DNA from: Sinorhizobium mexicanum
GTDB taxonomy: Bacteria > Pseudomonadota > Alphaproteobacteria > Rhizobiales > Rhizobiaceae
NCBI RefSeq assembly: GCF_013488225.1
Contig: NZ_CP041241.1
Span: forward strand, 620,001-684,000
DNA length: 64,000 nt
Direction: 5' to 3'
Shown here: positions 43,489 to 51,147 of the stretch, piece after piece
How positions within the stretch are numbered: position 1 is the first letter of the stretch
How the letters are laid out: every line of letters starts with the position of its first letter
The notes under the pieces: generated by a model
Seen by the model: the letters and a program-made list of their open reading frames with translations, nothing else
What the model was told of the DNA's origin: nothing
The model's database searches: none
Position numbers and translations under genes: made by a program

Positions 43489-44568
43489 TCAATCAGCATC
43501 GCGTTCGCCCTTGTTGGTGAAGTGGGCGTTGCCCAAGCCCGTGCCAATCGTCAGAATTCCCCAACCGGAGACGTCCTGCATGAAAGACATCTGCGAAAGG
43601 CCCTGGACGACGGCGTCGTTGTGCATGATCACGAAGGTCTCGTGGTCCCCGATTTGCGGAATGGCCTCCTTGATCTCGGCGGGCAGATTGAAGTGCTCGC
43701 TTTCCCAATTACCGCCTGGCAGGTTCTGACCGCCGCGCGCGATCGATCCATCGGCGTCGATCACGCCGGGACAGGCGACGCCAATCACGGGGGCCGGGAC
43801 AAGATCTGCCTTGTCCGCTTTGGCGATAAGCTTTTCGAGCATGGAGATGAGACGTTCAATCGCCGTGGTCCGACTGGGCTTGTCGTCCGCATGTCGCCAA
43901 ATATCCGACTTCCAGACCTTGGCCTTTGAAAGGTCAGAGCCTTCCTTCTCGCGCATCTCGACTACGCCCACGCGAATATTGGTGCCACCGATATCGATGG
44001 CAAGGATCGCCTTGTGCCCCTTGAGCATCCAGGGCGGGATGAGGTGCGCCGCACCGATAAGCCCCGCATCATCCGGATCGTGGACGATCGGACTGAGTTC
44101 TATCTTGATGCCCTTGGCCTTCAGCAGCACCATCGCGCGGGCAATTGCGAGTTCGCCTACGATTCGCTCACTGAAGCCGCCGCCCACCACGACGCGTTCA
44201 GTTTTCTTCCAGCTCTTCTGGTGCAGCAATTTGTCGAGAACATCGGCAAGCTCGCCGGCGAAATCGTCAACCGCTCCCATCACGATGGCGGCTGCCTCCT
44301 TGTCGTCACCAACGAGAAGGGCATCGATCTGTTTCTTCGACAGCTCGCGGGTTGGCGTCTTCCCGAGTGGATCGGTGCCACCGTTGCGTACTCGCTTGCG
44401 CCAGGCATCGAGCTTTTCCTGAAAGGCATATTTGTTGGCCTTGTCCCCCAGGAAGCCGTCGGAGCTTCGCAGTTCGATATTGTAGTCATCGACGATGACC
44501 GACGGTAGATCGTCGGCCCCATGCGTGAGGAGGACGCCGTTTTCTTTCTCGTTCGCGGATCTGCCCAC
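43489..44568 (-). CDS. ROK-family kinase-like protein with permuted motif order
   Basis: A 359-residue protein carrying all main ROK landmarks but in swapped order. The usual C-terminal half comes first: FAGELADVLDKLL (104-116), VVVGGGFSERIVGEL (126-140), DDAGLIGAAHL (166-176). The usual N-terminal half follows: AIDIGGTNIRVGVVEM (190-205), GVACPG (263-268), catalytic NDA (317-319) and GTGLGNAHF (342-350), where the protein ends. The zinc CxCGxxGCxE motif between these halves in canonical ROK proteins is absent. It is a natural circular permutation or a distinct subfamily. It is divergent from otsBA. It likely phosphorylates a sugar, with glucose as a guess. Confidence 0.82.
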   Translation of the reverse strand: MGRSANEKENGVLLTHGADDLPSVIVDDYNIELRSSDGFLGDKANKYAFQEKLDAWRKRVRNGGTDPLGKTPTRELSKKQIDALLVGDDKEAAAIVMGAVDDFAGELADVLDKLLHQKSWKKTERVVVGGGFSERIVGELAIARAMVLLKAKGIKIELSPIVHDPDDAGLIGAAHLIPPWMLKGHKAILAIDIGGTNIRVGVVEMREKEGSDLSKAKVWKSDIWRHADDKPSRTTAIERLISMLEKLIAKADKADLVPAPVIGVACPGVIDADGSIARGGQNLPGGNWESEHFNLPAEIKEAIPQIGDHETFVIMHNDAVVQGLSQMSFMQDVSGWGILTIGTGLGNAHFTNKGERDAD

Positions 44569-44814
44569 GCAACCCTCCCGTATGACGCTTCACCTGAACT
44601 GATCCGAGACCGGAGTGAGTGATAAACGTGAGCGGCCGGGCGATGTTCCGACGTCGCGGCGCCAAGTCTCGAAAGAGGTCGATTGATGGTGAACGCAGAG
44701 CCTGGATCACAGGCGAGTCACCGCGTTGCCTCGTCCCGCCACTTAGACAGCAAGTTTCCGCTTTGTGGAAACTCAGGGTTGGCCGATTGAGGACTGTGAC
44801 CTAAATATGGGGTC

Positions 44815-45612
44815 ATGTCACATAGGAAGCAGTTTCTCAGAGCCTCGAAACCCGACGCGGCTTCAGCAGAGGACTTCGTTCTCGCCGCTCTCACAACGGA
44901 TCTGCAAGGCTGGGCACTGTTCCTCGATATCGATGGTACGTTGCTTGACCTGGCCGCAACGCCGGACGCAGTAGTCGTTCCGCCTTCTTTGCCTGCGAAC
45001 CTCGATGCCTTGTCGAAAAAACTCGGAGGTGCCCTGGCACTCGTGACCGGTCGCGACCTTGGCTATGCCGAGCAGCTTTTTTCGCCATTCCTCTTTCCGA
45101 TCGCGGGTCTTCATGGTGCCGAACGCCGCGATGCAGACGGCCGGGTGCACAAAGCCGCCGATACGTCGGAATTTGAGCAGTTGAAGGCCGATCTTGTCGC
45201 CGATACGGCTAACTGGCCCGGTGTTCTGATCGAGGACAAGGGAGCGGCGGTCGCCGCGCACTACCGGCTTGCTCCGGACAAAAAACTCCAGCTTGAACCG
45301 CTGATCGAGCGGGCGTTGATCCGGGCAGGGCCAAACTGGACGATCCAGCATGGCAAGATGGTGATCGAAATCCGTCCGGCCCGTGCCGACAAAGGCGACG
45401 CAGTCGAGGCGTTTCTCGCGCAGCCACCTTTTGCCGGGAGGCGCGCAATCGCCGTCGGGGATGACGTGACCGACGAAGCGATGTTTCGCACGGTTAACCG
45501 GCTCGGCGGCTACTCGATCCGTGTCGGACCGCCGTCGCCTGCGAGCGAAGCGGTCGGCACCGTTCCCTCTGCCGAAGCTCTGCGCGGCATCATCGCTGCA
45601 TTGGTTCCCTGA
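44815..45612 (+). CDS. otsB: trehalose-6-phosphate phosphatase
   Basis: A 265-residue HAD phosphatase. The nucleophile motif is LFLDIDGTLLDLA (about 37-49), the middle motif VTGRDLGYAEQLF (about 80), the Lys motif VIEIRPARADKGDAVEAFL (about 184-202) and the acidic motif AVGDDVTDEAMF (about 211-222). It removes phosphate from trehalose-6-phosphate. It precedes otsA by 64 bases in an otsBA operon, divergent from the ROK gene. The ATG at 44815 is the first in frame, with a weak ribosome site. Confidence 0.95.
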   Translation: MSHRKQFLRASKPDAASAEDFVLAALTTDLQGWALFLDIDGTLLDLAATPDAVVVPPSLPANLDALSKKLGGALALVTGRDLGYAEQLFSPFLFPIAGLHGAERRDADGRVHKAADTSEFEQLKADLVADTANWPGVLIEDKGAAVAAHYRLAPDKKLQLEPLIERALIRAGPNWTIQHGKMVIEIRPARADKGDAVEAFLAQPPFAGRRAIAVGDDVTDEAMFRTVNRLGGYSIRVGPPSPASEAVGTVPSAEALRGIIAALVP

Positions 45613-45676: not shown

Positions 45677-47128
45677 ATGGGCCGTCTCGTCGTTGTTTCC
45701 AATCGCGTACCCGTTCCGGACAAGGGTGGTATTGCGCCCGCCGGCGGGCTGGCGGTTGCGCTGAAGGTCGCCCTTGAAGAGCATGGCGGCATATGGATGG
45801 GCTGGTCGGGGAAATCGAGCGGTGAGCACGAGCCGCAGCCGCTTGCACAACTGCAGCAGGGCAACATTACCTATGCACTGACGGATCTGACCGACACGGA
45901 TTTTGAGGAGTATTACCAGGGCTTTGCCAACCGGGTTCTTTGGCCGATCTGCCACTACCGGCTTGATCTCGCCGAGTACGGCCGCAAGGAAATGGCCGGC
46001 TATTTCCGCGTCAACCGCTTCTTCGCCCACCGCCTTGCCCCGCTTGTCAAACCCGATGACGTCATTTGGGTGCACGACTATCACTTAATCCCTCTCGCGG
46101 CAGAGCTGCGCGAGATGGGCTTGAAGAACCGCATCGGTTTCTTCCTCCACATTCCCTGGCCGCCCGCGGACGTGCTCTTCACGATGCCGGTTCATGAGCA
46201 GATCATGCGCGGCCTGTCCCACTACGACGTCGTCGGCTTTCAGACCGACCATGACCTTGAGAACTTCGCCGGCTGTCTCAGGCGGGAGGGCATCGGCGAT
46301 GAGCTCGGCGGAGGTCGCTTCAGCGCCTATGGCCGCGTATTCAAGGGCGACGCCTATGCAATCGGTATCGAGACTGCCGCCTTTGCCGAATTCGCCAAGA
46401 AGGCATCGACCAACAAGACGGTTAAAAGAACGCGTGAGAGCATTGGAAATCGCAGCCTGATCATCGGTGTCGATCGCCTCGATTATTCCAAGGGGATCAC
46501 GCAGCGCATCGACGCGTTTGAGCGCTTTATCCTGGCCAATCCAGCCCAGCATGGGCATGTGACCTATCTACAAATCACGCCGAAGTCCCGCTCCGAAGTG
46601 CCGGAGTACGAAGCCATGCAGCGCATGGTTGCCGAACAGGCCGGCAGGGTGAACGGCGCGATCGGTGCCGTCGATTGGGTCCCGATACGCTATATCAACC
46701 GCTCGATAGGCCGCCACATTCTTGCTGGGCTTTACCGGCTTGGCAAAGTCGGCCTCGTGACCCCGCTTCGAGATGGGATGAACCTCGTTGCAAAGGAATA
46801 TGTGGCCGCGCAGGACCCGGACGATCCCGGTGTGCTTCTGCTTTCGCGTTTCGCCGGAGCTGCTCGCAAGCTGCACGGCGCGCTGCTCGTCAACCCGTAC
46901 GACATAGAGGGTACCGCGAACGCCATGGCGCGAGCGCTGAGCATGCCGCTGGAAGAACGGAAGCAGCGCTGGAAGACGATGATGGATCACTTGCTGGAAC
47001 ACGACGTTACGCGCTGGTGCCAGGATTTTCTTGATGATCTGACGGGGAGACCAAACGAGCCTGGAGAACACTCAAATGGAGGGCAAGCCGCGTATCCCGC
47101 CAAAACCGGGATAGAAGCGAGCGACTAA
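45677..47128 (+). CDS. otsA: trehalose-6-phosphate synthase
   Basis: A 483-residue GT20 glycosyltransferase. It starts GRLVVVSNRVPVPDKGG, with WMGWSGKS (about 39), VWVHDYHLIPLA near 133, IGFFLHIPWPPADVL (about 151-165), VDRLDYSKGITQRI (about 262-275) and LVTPLRDGMNLVAKEY (about 360-375), where nucleotide sugar is bound. AGGAGGT precedes the ATG. It forms trehalose-6-phosphate from UDP-glucose and glucose-6-phosphate; with otsB it gives an osmo- and desiccation-protection module. Confidence 0.97.
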   Translation: MGRLVVVSNRVPVPDKGGIAPAGGLAVALKVALEEHGGIWMGWSGKSSGEHEPQPLAQLQQGNITYALTDLTDTDFEEYYQGFANRVLWPICHYRLDLAEYGRKEMAGYFRVNRFFAHRLAPLVKPDDVIWVHDYHLIPLAAELREMGLKNRIGFFLHIPWPPADVLFTMPVHEQIMRGLSHYDVVGFQTDHDLENFAGCLRREGIGDELGGGRFSAYGRVFKGDAYAIGIETAAFAEFAKKASTNKTVKRTRESIGNRSLIIGVDRLDYSKGITQRIDAFERFILANPAQHGHVTYLQITPKSRSEVPEYEAMQRMVAEQAGRVNGAIGAVDWVPIRYINRSIGRHILAGLYRLGKVGLVTPLRDGMNLVAKEYVAAQDPDDPGVLLLSRFAGAARKLHGALLVNPYDIEGTANAMARALSMPLEERKQRWKTMMDHLLEHDVTRWCQDFLDDLTGRPNEPGEHSNGGQAAYPAKTGIEASD

Positions 47129-47226: not shown

Positions 47227-48258
47227 TCAGATATTCTCCGGCGTAAAAATGTCGAAAGGCAGGAAGGTCTGTCCCGGCACACCGGCCGCGCCTCGATCGA
47301 TTGCCCCGACCATCAGGGTGATTGTCTCCCGCACGAGTGCGGGAACGGGTGTGGCGATCGCCATCGTGACTGCCTCGTCGGCGAGAGCTGCGCGCGATTC
47401 CGGTGTGAGCTCGTTGACGACCACCAGCAGCTTGCGCTCGAGCTTTTCCTCTCGGATCGCCGAGATCGCGCCCTCCATCCCCCCGCCGCAGACATAGAAA
47501 CCGATGAGGTCCGGGTGCCGCCGCAGAAGATCGAGGGTCGCCTCGTGGGTGATTTCGGCGGTATCGAGATTGACCATCGTGTCGAGCACTTCGAATTCGG
47601 GCGCGTTCTCGCGAAAATAGGAGCGAAAGGCGATCTCGCGGAGTTCGTGCCCGTGGAAACGGTGGCTGCCGACGAAGGCTGCGACTTTGCCGGGGCGGTT
47701 CGCTGCCTTGGCGATCATCCAGGCCGCGGTTCGCCCAACCTTGTGGTTGTTCAGGCCGACATAACCCTCACGCACTCCGGCTGCGAAATCGGAAAGCAGC
47801 GAGAAAACCGGAATGCCTCGCTCCTTCAGTTCCTCTATCACTGCCGTGACGGCCGGATAGTCCGGTGCGACAAGCGCTATCGCCTGGTTGCGCGCCGCCA
47901 TCGCCTTCAGCTTTTCAGTGATGCCCGCCGGGGTGGAGTTGGGAACGAAGTCCACATGAGGGAGGGCGCGGACATGGGTCAGCGACAGCGACGCGTTCTC
48001 GATCTCCTTCGCAAGGGCCTGATAGAAAGATTGCTGCGGCTTTTGCAGGAGAAAGCCGAGACGATATTGCGGAAGATCCTCGAACACGCGTTGGCGAAGC
48101 AGGCCAACGGCGTGATAGCCGATCGCCTTGGCGGCATCAAAAACCCGTCGCGCGGTTTCCTCGCGTACCGGATGACGCCCGTTCAAGACCCGGTCGACCG
48201 TGGCAACGCTCACGCCCGCGGCTTGCGCAAGATCCGCGATCGTCGGTCTCCTCGTCAT
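47227..48258 (-). CDS. LacI-family regulator divergent from mocDEF
   Basis: A 343-residue LacI/GalR regulator. HTH PTIADLAQAAGVSVATVDRVLNG (about 5-27), hinge YHAVGLLRQRV, effector domain with GFLLQKPQQSFYQAL, PVFSLLSDFA and YVCGGGMEGAISA. ATG 48258 has AAGGAGGGA upstream; an open extension to 48351 lacks one. It shares its promoter region with mocD and probably represses it. Ligand presumably the methylated compound or its product. Confidence 0.9.
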   Translation of the reverse strand: MTRRPTIADLAQAAGVSVATVDRVLNGRHPVREETARRVFDAAKAIGYHAVGLLRQRVFEDLPQYRLGFLLQKPQQSFYQALAKEIENASLSLTHVRALPHVDFVPNSTPAGITEKLKAMAARNQAIALVAPDYPAVTAVIEELKERGIPVFSLLSDFAAGVREGYVGLNNHKVGRTAAWMIAKAANRPGKVAAFVGSHRFHGHELREIAFRSYFRENAPEFEVLDTMVNLDTAEITHEATLDLLRRHPDLIGFYVCGGGMEGAISAIREEKLERKLLVVVNELTPESRAALADEAVTMAIATPVPALVRETITLMVGAIDRGAAGVPGQTFLPFDIFTPENI

Positions 48259-48337
48259 GGCGTCCCTCCTTGAAATTATCCCCTCAAGCATGAGGTTGTC
48301 GTTATGATGGAATTTGAGAGAATATATCATGACTGCA

Positions 48338-48351
48338 TTGAGAATTGTCAA
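48338..48351. promoter_or_regulatory. imperfect palindrome, candidate LacI operator
   Basis: TTGAGAATTGTCAA (12 of 14 positions symmetric) lies midway between the divergent LacI and mocD starts. CCTCAAGCATGAGG is a second small inverted repeat about 50 bases away, nearer the LacI gene. Either could be the operator. Confidence 0.35.
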
Positions 48352-48416
48352 AAGTCAACATACGCTCCCTTCATCGAATTTGGGGCGCAAGCGGGAGTGC
48401 GCTTCGGGAGGAAGAG

Positions 48417-49508
48417 ATGACGACGGTCGCGACGAAAAGAGATTACAGCCTGCTCGGGCGCGATGCCACGGCGGCGGTCGCCAAGGGCCTTTCCGCGGCG
48501 GAGTGGTATCACACCGATATTCCGCGCAAGCAGATGAAGGAATTGATGAAACGCGAGGATGGGCCGGCCATCTGCGACACCTTCCTCTGGCTCGGCAGCA
48601 TGGTGCTGTTCGGCGGGCTCGGCATTCACTTCTGGGATACTTGGGCGGCCGTGCCGCTTTTCCTCGCCTACGGTGTCCTTTACGGCTCGGCATCCGACAG
48701 CCGCTGGCACGAATGCGGTCATGGCACCGCGTTCAAGACGATGTGGATGAATGATGTGGTCTATCAGATCGCCTGTTTCATGATCATGCGCAATCCGGTG
48801 ACCTGGCGCTGGAGCCATACCCGCCACCACACCGATACGGTCATCGTCGGCCGCGACCCGGAAATCGCGATCATGCGCCCGCCGGACCTTCTCCGGCTCG
48901 TTCTCAACTTCTTCGGCATCATCGACGTCTGGCACGCGATGGTCGACATGGTGCGAAACGCTTTCGGCGTGATCAGCGCCGCGGAAAAGACCTTCATTCC
49001 GGAAATGGAGCGGCCGAAGGCGATCCTGGTCGCCCGCATCTGGCTGGCGATCTATGTCGCGACGATCGCCCTGTCGGTCTATCTCGGCTCCATTCTCCCG
49101 CTGATGTTGATCGGCCTGCCGCGGCTTTACGGCGCCTGGCATCATGTCTTGACGGGCCTGTTGCAGCACGGCGGGCTTGCTGACAACGTCACCGATCACC
49201 GGCTGAACAGCCGCACGGTCTACATGAATCCGGTGAGCCGTTTCATCTATTGGAACATGAACTACCACGTCGAACATCACATGTTTCCGATGGTGCCCTA
49301 TCACGCCTTGCCGAAGCTGCACGCGATGATCAGGCACGACCTGCCGGCGGCAAACCCGTCCATGCTGCACGGCTATCTGGAAATGATCCCGGCCTTCCTC
49401 AGGCAGCTCAAGAACGAGGACTACTTCCTGAAGCGCGAATTGCCGCCGACGGCAAAGCCCTATCGCGAAGAGTTCCATAGCGATCGGGTCATCAACGCCG
49501 CCGAGTGA
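48417..49508 (+). CDS. mocD: membrane di-iron oxygenase, rhizopine catabolism protein MocD-like
   Basis: A 363-residue fatty-acid-desaturase superfamily protein. Three His boxes are HECGH (98-102), HTRHH (134-138) and HVEHH (284-288), plus four hydrophobic segments. In rhizopine catabolism MocDEF is reported to remove the O-methyl group of 3-O-methyl-scyllo-inosamine; MocD is the oxygenase. GGGAGGAAGAG precedes the ATG. It is followed by ferredoxin mocE and reductase mocF in the same order as known moc loci. The true substrate here could be another methylated cyclitol or amine. Confidence 0.86.
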   Translation: MTTVATKRDYSLLGRDATAAVAKGLSAAEWYHTDIPRKQMKELMKREDGPAICDTFLWLGSMVLFGGLGIHFWDTWAAVPLFLAYGVLYGSASDSRWHECGHGTAFKTMWMNDVVYQIACFMIMRNPVTWRWSHTRHHTDTVIVGRDPEIAIMRPPDLLRLVLNFFGIIDVWHAMVDMVRNAFGVISAAEKTFIPEMERPKAILVARIWLAIYVATIALSVYLGSILPLMLIGLPRLYGAWHHVLTGLLQHGGLADNVTDHRLNSRTVYMNPVSRFIYWNMNYHVEHHMFPMVPYHALPKLHAMIRHDLPAANPSMLHGYLEMIPAFLRQLKNEDYFLKRELPPTAKPYREEFHSDRVINAAE

Positions 49509-49559
49509 GCGTGGAAAACGACAACCCTTCAAAAACCTTGCATTGAATGGAGGAAACCC

Positions 49560-49877
49560 ATGAGCGCGAATTGGGTCGAGGTCTGTGCGGCCGACGAGAT
49601 CGATGAAGAAGACGTCATCCGTTTCGATCACGAGGGGAGAACCTTCGCCGTCTATCGCAGCCCCGATGATGAATATTTCGCGACCGACGGGCTCTGCACC
49701 CACGAGCACATTCATCTCGCCGATGGCCTGGTGATGGACGACATCATCGAATGTCCAAAGCACAACGGCCGCTTCAACTACAAGACCGGCCAGGCCAGGG
49801 GCGCCCCCGTCTGCGTCAACCTCCGGACCTATCCGGTAAAGGTTGAGGCCGGCAGCGTCTTCATCGCGATTTCCTGA
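49560..49877 (+). CDS. mocE: Rieske-type ferredoxin, MocE-like
   Basis: A 105-residue Rieske [2Fe-2S] protein. Cluster ligands are Cys46 and His48 in LCTHEHIHLADG, and Cys65 and His68 in CPKHNGRFN. It carries electrons from MocF to MocD. It starts 51 bases after mocD with GAGGAAACC ahead and is 43 bases upstream of mocF. Confidence 0.92.
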   Translation: MSANWVEVCAADEIDEEDVIRFDHEGRTFAVYRSPDDEYFATDGLCTHEHIHLADGLVMDDIIECPKHNGRFNYKTGQARGAPVCVNLRTYPVKVEAGSVFIAIS

Positions 49878-49920
49878 CGACAATTGCCTTAACGTCGAGC
49901 CGGCGGAGGGAGGAGAAGGC

Positions 49921-51147
49921 ATGGCACATATCGTCATCGTGGGCGCCGGCGAATGCGGTGCGCGGGCGGGGTTTGCGCTGCGGGAAAAAGGCTTCGACGG
50001 CGAAATCACATTGATCGGCGCCGAACCGCATCTTCCCTATGAGCGGCCGCCGCTTTCGAAGGCCGGGCTTGCAGGCGCCGAGGGGCCGAAATACGTCGCG
50101 AGCGCCGAGCGCTACGAGGAGGCCGGGATAACCGTGCTGACAAATGCTGTCGTGGAGAGGGTCGCCCGTGAGGACAAGGCTGTGCGGCTCGGAGACGGCC
50201 GATCGATCAAGTATGACCGGCTGCTGCTCGCAACCGGCGCACGTCCGCGGGCGTTTCCAGGCGCGTCCGAAAACTCCGCGCGTATCCGGGTCCTCAGAAC
50301 CCATGCCGATGCCCTCGCGATCCGGCCAGCGCTTGCGGCGGGCCGAAAGGTCGCCATCATTGGCGGGGGCTTCATCGGCCTCGAACTGGCCGCAACGGCG
50401 CGCAAGCTGGGCGCCGAGGTCACGCTTGTCGAGGGTCAGCCGCGTCTTCTGACCCGCGGCGTGCCGGAAGAGATAGCCACCGTCGTCGCTGAAAGGCATC
50501 GGCATGAAGGCGTCGAAATCATCTGTGGCGCGAAGATTGCCGCGCTCGATGGTGGCGAGCGCGAGGCGCGCATTCATTTTGCCGATGGCGGCGGTCTCTC
50601 CGCCGATCTCGTCATCGTCGGCATTGGTGCGGTGCCCAACACGGAACTGGCGGAAGCTGCGGGCCTTGCGATCGACAACGGCATTGCCGTCGACGAGACG
50701 CTGCGGACGTCAGATCCCGACATCTATGCTGCTGGCGACTGCTGCTCCTTCCCGCTGTCGCATTACGGCGGGCGGCGGGTGCGGCTCGAGGCGTGGCGCA
50801 ACGCCCAGGACCAGGGAACTCTGGTCGCCATCAACCTGATCGGCGGGTCAGATGCCGTCTCCAGTGTGCCGTGGTTCTGGTCGGATCAATACGACCTGAC
50901 GCTGCAGATCGCCGGCCTTGCCGACGGCGCGGCGGCGACGGTTCGGCGCGACATGGAGGAGGGGGCCTTCATTCTCTTTCATCTGGATGGCGAAGGCCGG
51001 CTGATCGCCGCAAGCGGCATCGGCCCCGGCAATGCCGTTGCCCGCGACATCCGCCTTGCCGAAATGCTGATCGCTGCCGGCAGTCGCCCGGACCCAGAGG
51101 CGCTCGCTTCTCCGGGCACCAAGCTCAGGAAGCTGCTGGCGGCGTGA
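49921..51147 (+). CDS. mocF: FAD-dependent ferredoxin reductase, MocF-like
   Basis: A 408-residue NAD(H)-dependent ferredoxin reductase. The FAD fold is IVIVGAGECGARAGFALRE (about 4-22) and PYERPPLSK (about 40-48); the NAD fold is VAIIGGGFIGLELAATARKLG (about 144-164). DIYAAGDCCSFPLSHYGGR (about 268-286) is the second FAD signature. The reductase C-terminal domain follows, with VPWFWSDQYDLTLQIAG. GGAGGAG precedes ATG 49921. It completes the three-component oxygenase with mocD and mocE. Confidence 0.93.
   Translation: MAHIVIVGAGECGARAGFALREKGFDGEITLIGAEPHLPYERPPLSKAGLAGAEGPKYVASAERYEEAGITVLTNAVVERVAREDKAVRLGDGRSIKYDRLLLATGARPRAFPGASENSARIRVLRTHADALAIRPALAAGRKVAIIGGGFIGLELAATARKLGAEVTLVEGQPRLLTRGVPEEIATVVAERHRHEGVEIICGAKIAALDGGEREARIHFADGGGLSADLVIVGIGAVPNTELAEAAGLAIDNGIAVDETLRTSDPDIYAAGDCCSFPLSHYGGRRVRLEAWRNAQDQGTLVAINLIGGSDAVSSVPWFWSDQYDLTLQIAGLADGAAATVRRDMEEGAFILFHLDGEGRLIAASGIGPGNAVARDIRLAEMLIAAGSRPDPEALASPGTKLRKLLAA

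Follow-up and report, generated by a model that had tools for sequence, protein, structure and literature searches.

The question raised by this locus is whether a gene of the ROK kinase type, in which the usual motifs follow one another in a swapped order, encodes a natural circular permutant and, if so, what such a protein would do. The window (the whole stretch of 64,000 nucleotides from Sinorhizobium mexicanum contig NZ_CP041241.1 analysed here) carries the gene, hereafter cpROK, on its minus strand (43489..44568). It encodes 359 aa and has full-length homologues, and its frame is open from the GTG start at 44568 to the stop ending at 43489. An earlier note, made from the letters only, had placed VVVGGG (residues 126-131) and GLIGAAHL (169-176) ahead of DIGGTN (192-197), GVACPG (263-268), NDA (317-319) and GTGLG (342-346), in an unbroken frame and with no zinc motif; the translation bears out all of this, with every motif position exact. 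The note was slightly off for the chain end, which it put 6-10 residues past GTGLG; the end actually lies 13 residues past this motif, i.e., 18 residues counted from its GTG.

Homology of the two halves to ROK kinases

In order to compare each half separately with the ROK family, as the earlier note had proposed, we aligned with hhalign a 58-row profile of residues 1-185 to a 30-row profile of canonical ROK proteins. Residues 74-178 fell on ROK 210-309, in the C-lobe, with a probability of 95.5% and an E-value of 1.4e-8, the GGG and GLIGAA motifs being in register; the best of 20 column-shuffled controls reached 1.5% and an E-value of 0.033. The alignment of residues 80-180 with the ROK C-lobe, a check set beforehand, was thus obtained. 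The second half (residues 187-354) aligned with ROK 3-156, the N-terminal half, at an E-value of 2.9e-15, so that both halves are homologous to ROK. Once the profile was rotated into canonical order, one single alignment of 302 columns covered ROK 3-309 (score 141.8, E 1.3e-19), whereas the best single stretch of the native-order profile scored 103.2.

The Pfam ROK profile (PF00480) matched residues 189-352 over profile positions 2-141 of 294, with 30.8 bits for a gathering cut-off of 22.9; residues 1-185 on their own gave nothing significant against Pfam (best E 0.16) or against NCBIfam. After rotation, the Pfam match reached profile positions 292, 248, and 290 in three of four proteins, for small gains of 0.7, 4.0, and 1.6 bits; for cpROK of the window, it stayed at 2-141, that is, on the N-lobe only. 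None of the best NCBIfam matches of cpROK (ROK glucokinase, beta-glucoside kinase, N-acetylmannosamine kinase, and allose kinase) came anywhere near its cut-off. A PDB profile search with the N-terminal half returned eight weak matches, of which the two best were unrelated (E 0.31 and 0.32) and the third was the C-lobe of N-acetylmannosamine kinase (E 0.33).

One could picture residues 1-185 as a helical domain of unrelated origin, joined to one half of a ROK domain, a reading to which the non-significant Pfam search and the two unrelated PDB matches lend some colour. We consider it very improbable and rejected it on the hhalign result with its shuffled controls: the alignment to the ROK C-lobe is strong, its motifs are in register, shuffled columns fail, and the weak matches to the C-lobe of N-acetylmannosamine kinase in the PDB profile searches (E 0.33 to 0.95) lie in the right place.

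Spread of the permuted order and site of the cut

Within the genus, 27 of the 33 genomes hold a cpROK match when the window's own is counted (26 of the 32 others). A scan of genomes turned up 23 loci, which are 58-93% identical. Matches were found in 205 plasmid records, and in 203 of these they covered 80% or more of the query; the records come from Rhizobium, Sinorhizobium, Shinella, Bradyrhizobium, Phyllobacterium, Roseateles, Ensifer, and Methylobacterium. For the class and phylum searches, at most five candidates per genome were scored, so the counts are lower bounds: at least 17 of the 385 class genomes matched (16 full-length, own genome included, and one weak), as did at least 28 of the 398 phylum genomes (22 full-length, own genome included, and six weak). 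Each full-length match from these two sets aligns with the permuted query as a single collinear stretch, and no non-permuted close relative appeared among them; the seven weak matches are ordinary ROK proteins. Two partial matches were seen, at G312:C38 (residues 259-354) and on a Bradyrhizobium barranii plasmid (residues 215-333). One genus genome has a second copy split into two frames (L135, G016 C1:459501-460572) and a longer copy elsewhere. Where the plasmid records listed carry a label, it is “ROK family protein” or “hypothetical protein”, and in one case “glucokinase”; such labels hide both the permuted chain and the loss of the canonical sugar and zinc motifs.

We then compared 60 frames, i.e., the window and 59 loci ranging from Sinorhizobium to non-alpha Pseudomonadota. 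The order GGG, DIGGT, GTGxG holds in 59 of them, the lone exception (L118) carrying an in-frame stop, and the C-terminus lies 12-39 residues counted from GTG in all 60. Among 30 canonical ROK controls, 26 showed the order DIGGT, GTGxG, GGG, and the other four had no match to the GGG pattern. A swapped order kept across so many species points to a real and old rearrangement. The chance that an assembly error, a frameshift, or a gene call has lent a permuted look to a normal ROK gene is vanishingly small; nothing was found in favour of this explanation, and we discarded it, as the same order and both termini recur in independent assemblies and complete replicons.

The AlphaFold model of cpROK (20 rows; pLDDT 74.5, pTM 0.74; five models spanning 58.9-74.5), with pLDDT below 50 at residues 1-16 and 279-293, was used to follow the order of the structural elements. 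In the first part, it predicts strand 24-29, helices, strand 125-129, helix 136-151, strand 157-160, and helix 165-175; in the second part come strand 187-193 (DIGG), the N-lobe, and the last strands 335-340 and 348-352. In the predicted topology, which the earlier note had wanted checked, the elements of the C-lobe precede those of the N-lobe. On the gene, all on the minus strand, the C-lobe part placed first (residues 16-184, 44017..44523) is supported by the hhalign match and the AlphaFold elements and contains strand 24-29, helices, VVVGGG, and GLIGAAHL. The N-lobe with the first C-lobe strand follows (residues 186-345, 43534..44013; DIGGTN, CPG, HND, GTGL), as recognized by Pfam ROK and hhalign, and then the C-terminal strand GNAHFTN with a short tail (residues 346-359, 43492..43533), at which the chain ends in all 60 frames. 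The joint between the old C-terminus and the old N-terminus corresponds to residues ~177-185 (IPPWMLKGH, 44014..44040). The fold is built on a duplicated bbb-a-b-a-b-a plan; set on this plan, the predicted order of elements places the cut between C-lobe strands 2 and 3. The new start, first suggested to lie near the old zinc loop, is indeed near it, only slightly upstream, the zinc-loop-aligned stretch being at residues ~30-45.

In sequential structure comparison, the solved human N-acetylmannosamine kinase 2yhw matched the model over residues 184-348 (116 residues, 2.6 A, 22% identity), and the two rows of this ROK kinase (2yhw and 2yhy) covered 184-353 only, as expected for a permuted model if a sequential aligner can use one half only. 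Other ASKHA families outranked ROK in these searches: most other rows were hexokinases and further ASKHA proteins that span both lobes at 6-14% identity, and we read them as lobes probably matched out of order.

We propose the following path for the chain. It would start at C-lobe beta-strand 3 and run through the rest of the C-lobe; a short linker would then join the old C-terminus to the old N-terminus (GLIGAAHL-IPPWMLKGHK-AILAIDIGGTN); the N-lobe would be completed after the linker, and the chain would end with C-lobe strands 1-2 (TIGTGLGNAHFTN), the whole presumably folding into one two-lobed ASKHA-fold kinase. Most likely, the permutation has a single origin: a ROK gene would have been duplicated in tandem and fused, and the outer halves would then have been lost. 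The conserved order, the hhalign alignments of both halves, and the order of AlphaFold elements support the natural circular permutation of a ROK-type kinase first suspected from the motifs, and we are almost certain of this architecture.

Residues, promoter and neighbouring genes

The catalytic Asn317 and Asp318 are each present in 60 of the 60 frames, as are the phosphate motifs Gly194-Gly195, Asn197, Gly342-Thr343-Gly344, and Gly129-131. Conversely, three canonical motifs are missing from all 60: the zinc motif CxCGxxGC (found in 28 of 30 canonical ROK proteins), ExGH (30/30), and GCxE (27/30). In canonical ROK kinases, it is through ExGH and GCxE that the sugar is bound. Other residues are conserved specifically in cpROK, namely H16 (60/60), G17 (58/60), F39, G41, and W120 (60/60), together with a region comprising G279, Q281-N282-L283-P284, G286, and W288 (60/60) as well as N287 (57/60). 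With the catalytic and phosphate motifs kept and ExGH and GCxE gone, kinase chemistry is likely and the sugar pocket is likely different; the substrate may, thus, not be glucose. ATP would be bound via DIGGTN, GTGLG, and VVVGGG, and Asp318 would act as the catalytic base on a sugar hydroxyl. Judging from the residues conserved, we consider kinase activity of cpROK likely.

Some ROK proteins act as repressors, and cpROK might similarly be a permuted ROK fold devoid of sugar kinase activity, acting as a stress regulator or a sugar sensor. The loss of ExGH, GCxE, and the zinc motif from every frame would fit such a role, as would the stress-type promoter described below; however, no DNA-binding domain was matched in Pfam for cpROK of the window, and HND, the catalytic motif, is retained in 60 of 60 frames together with the phosphate-binding motifs, which argues for catalysis. 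We, therefore, regard a regulator or sensor as unlikely and keep the kinase as the preferred reading.

An EcfG/RpoE2-type promoter element (GGAACATCGCCCGGCCGCTCACGTT, minus strand, 44625..44649) lies 81 nt upstream of the cpROK start. It is an exact GGAAC-N16-CGTT, the EcfG1 motif as printed for Rhizobium etli in PMC3892343. This spacing and its N17 variant (GGAAC-N16/17-CGTT) occur at chance level, both genome-wide (172 matches vs 175 for the reversed control) and in the window (1 match vs 1.1 expected), so the promoter call rests on conservation across the family. A relaxed pattern (GGAAC-N15..18-[CG]GTT, 40-100 nt upstream of the start) was found in 41 of 62 cpROK loci, vs a mean of 0.1 and a maximum of 2 in 200 rounds of dinucleotide shuffling and 107 of 4942 random 340-base stretches of the same loci. 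When the loci were clustered at 75% identity, the majority of members had the motif in 16 of 28 clusters. It is missing in 21 of the 62 loci, including seven of the eight in a Bradyrhizobium-like cluster. The five non-alpha loci, which form one clade, all lack it, in keeping with EcfG being an alphaproteobacterial system. An opposite-strand EcfG-type motif was also observed upstream of cpROK in L035, L038, L039, L043, and L168, the first four facing a divergent otsB.

From its upstream sequence, cpROK looks to be controlled by the alphaproteobacterial general stress response, and a stress-type promoter found so often upstream makes it probably a stress enzyme. It would be made when EcfG/RpoE2 is active, under osmotic, heat, oxidative, or starvation stress. 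RpoE2 is described as the general stress sigma factor of S. meliloti, with 346 predicted promoters (PMC3616915), and the title of a reference cited in PMC4960864 states that it is needed for trehalose synthesis in this species.

The otsBA pair was rightly said to be divergent from cpROK, as positions and Pfam matches confirm: otsB, coding for trehalose-6-phosphate phosphatase, is on the plus strand at 44815..45612 (PF02358 Trehalose_PPase, E 1.7e-32), followed by otsA, coding for trehalose-6-phosphate synthase (GT20; 45677..47128, plus strand; PF00982, E 9.2e-124), the sole otsA match in the genome at E-values up to 0.001. Further along, a fatty-acid-desaturase-type gene, a small Rieske-like ferredoxin (by eye), and a ferredoxin-reductase-type gene stand in a row (48345-51147), with a LacI regulator (47227-48351) divergent from them; the row looks like an oxygenase operon.

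For the neighbourhood clustering, GC3 was used, no cpROK was placed in L115 and L118, and 30 of the 31 chosen neighbours were scanned. A divergent otsB accompanies cpROK in 18 of 63 loci, window included, and is absent from the other 45; sixteen of the linked loci have a gap of 133-300 nt between the two genes, and the remaining two one of 1.6-1.8 kb. The linked loci are the window, several Sinorhizobium/Ensifer, Rhizobium, and Shinella loci, Rhizobiaceae MAGs, and two further Hyphomicrobiales MAGs. In a Hyphomicrobiales MAG (L040, 1-4796), the order directly upstream is otsA, a GH15/trehalase-like gene (TREH_N-like), an otsB match (32% identity), and then cpROK; in another (L043, 1-4695), matches to otsA and otsB, along with a gene resembling the L040 GH15, occupy the same places, the Pfam assignments being those of the otsA and GH15 genes of L040. 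On Rhizobium plasmids L100, L101, L102, and L169, otsB-cpROK sits beside a sugar ABC transporter cluster, and it adjoins repABC replication genes in L100, L102, and L169. Outside the otsB clade, neighbours vary: L120 has an OpuAC betaine transporter, L119 an MscS-type channel, and many of the other genes are unrelated. The S. meliloti loci have no otsB nearby; the neighbour of cpROK there (L098, 6922-9324) is annotated as an osmoprotectant NAGGN-system M42 peptidase, which is another link to osmolytes. As the otsB linkage is limited to 18 of 63 loci and neighbours are varied elsewhere, the trehalose link is a trait of Rhizobiaceae and close kin rather than of the whole family.

Glucose would be the first candidate substrate, along with closely related sugars that arise as trehalose is turned over, and cpROK may feed glucose-6-phosphate to OtsA or recycle trehalose-derived glucose. 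A role in glucose or trehalose balance is plausible given the otsB linkage and the stress promoter; for glucose itself as the substrate, we put the chances at about even. The genome has six further ROK-family loci, so another glucokinase is not obviously needed. The kinase could also act on a non-glucose substrate, such as another osmolyte, a polyol, or an amino sugar, the trehalose link being incidental in Rhizobiaceae. In favour of this, cpROK has lost the motif that contacts the sugar and conserves residues specific to its own family in its stead (H16, G17, and the 279-288 region), most loci have no divergent otsB, and neighbours include the betaine transporter, the MscS-type channel, and the NAGGN peptidase; on the other hand, the best NCBIfam matches, distant as they are from their cut-offs, are sugar kinases including ROK glucokinase, and the otsA-GH15-otsB-cpROK cluster favours glucose. 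We hold a non-glucose substrate for a real, if minority, possibility.

The probable permuted kinase among known systems

Most likely, cpROK is a sugar kinase of the ROK type that has been circularly permuted, does without zinc, and belongs to the general stress response, where it may serve trehalose; that it is both permuted and a stress-controlled kinase seems to us probable. A little short of an even chance goes to a further-reaching proposal, in which one old permutation would have founded a separate zinc-free ROK-fold subfamily, its pocket rebuilt on H16-G17 and GQNLPG-NW, working as a general-stress kinase on a substrate new to ROK; we are equally tentative about the spread of this putative subfamily through Alphaproteobacteria and further Pseudomonadota.

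Among the open-access papers listed, none was on a permuted ROK kinase, glucokinase, ASKHA protein, or sugar kinase of this sort, and those on ROK, glucokinase, or otsB together with the stress regulon yielded nothing on the cpROK gene. A conserved natural permutant of a two-lobed ATP-hinge kinase is a ready test of how far lobe order matters for folding and domain closure, and cpROK points to an enzyme apparently under alphaproteobacterial general stress control, in legume symbionts among others.

Three known systems can be compared with this locus. With the OtsA/OtsB trehalose pathway, of which cpROK is to our knowledge no known member, the relation is one of position: otsB is adjacent or near, and divergent, at cpROK of the window and at 17 further loci, and unlinked in the majority. 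The likeness to the EcfG/RpoE2 general stress regulon, as read from DNA sequence, lies in the exact element at the window and its relaxed form in about two thirds of the loci. With the ROK family kinases (PF00480; ROK glucokinase, NanK, BglK, AlsK, and human MNK 2yhw), cpROK shares homology in both lobes as well as DIGGT, CPG, ND, GTGxG, and GGG; it differs from canonical members by its permuted chain and by having no CxCGxxGC zinc motif, ExGH, or GCxE. cpROK is a permuted relative of the ROK kinases rather than a canonical member, as its motif order and its lack of the zinc motif and of ExGH show.
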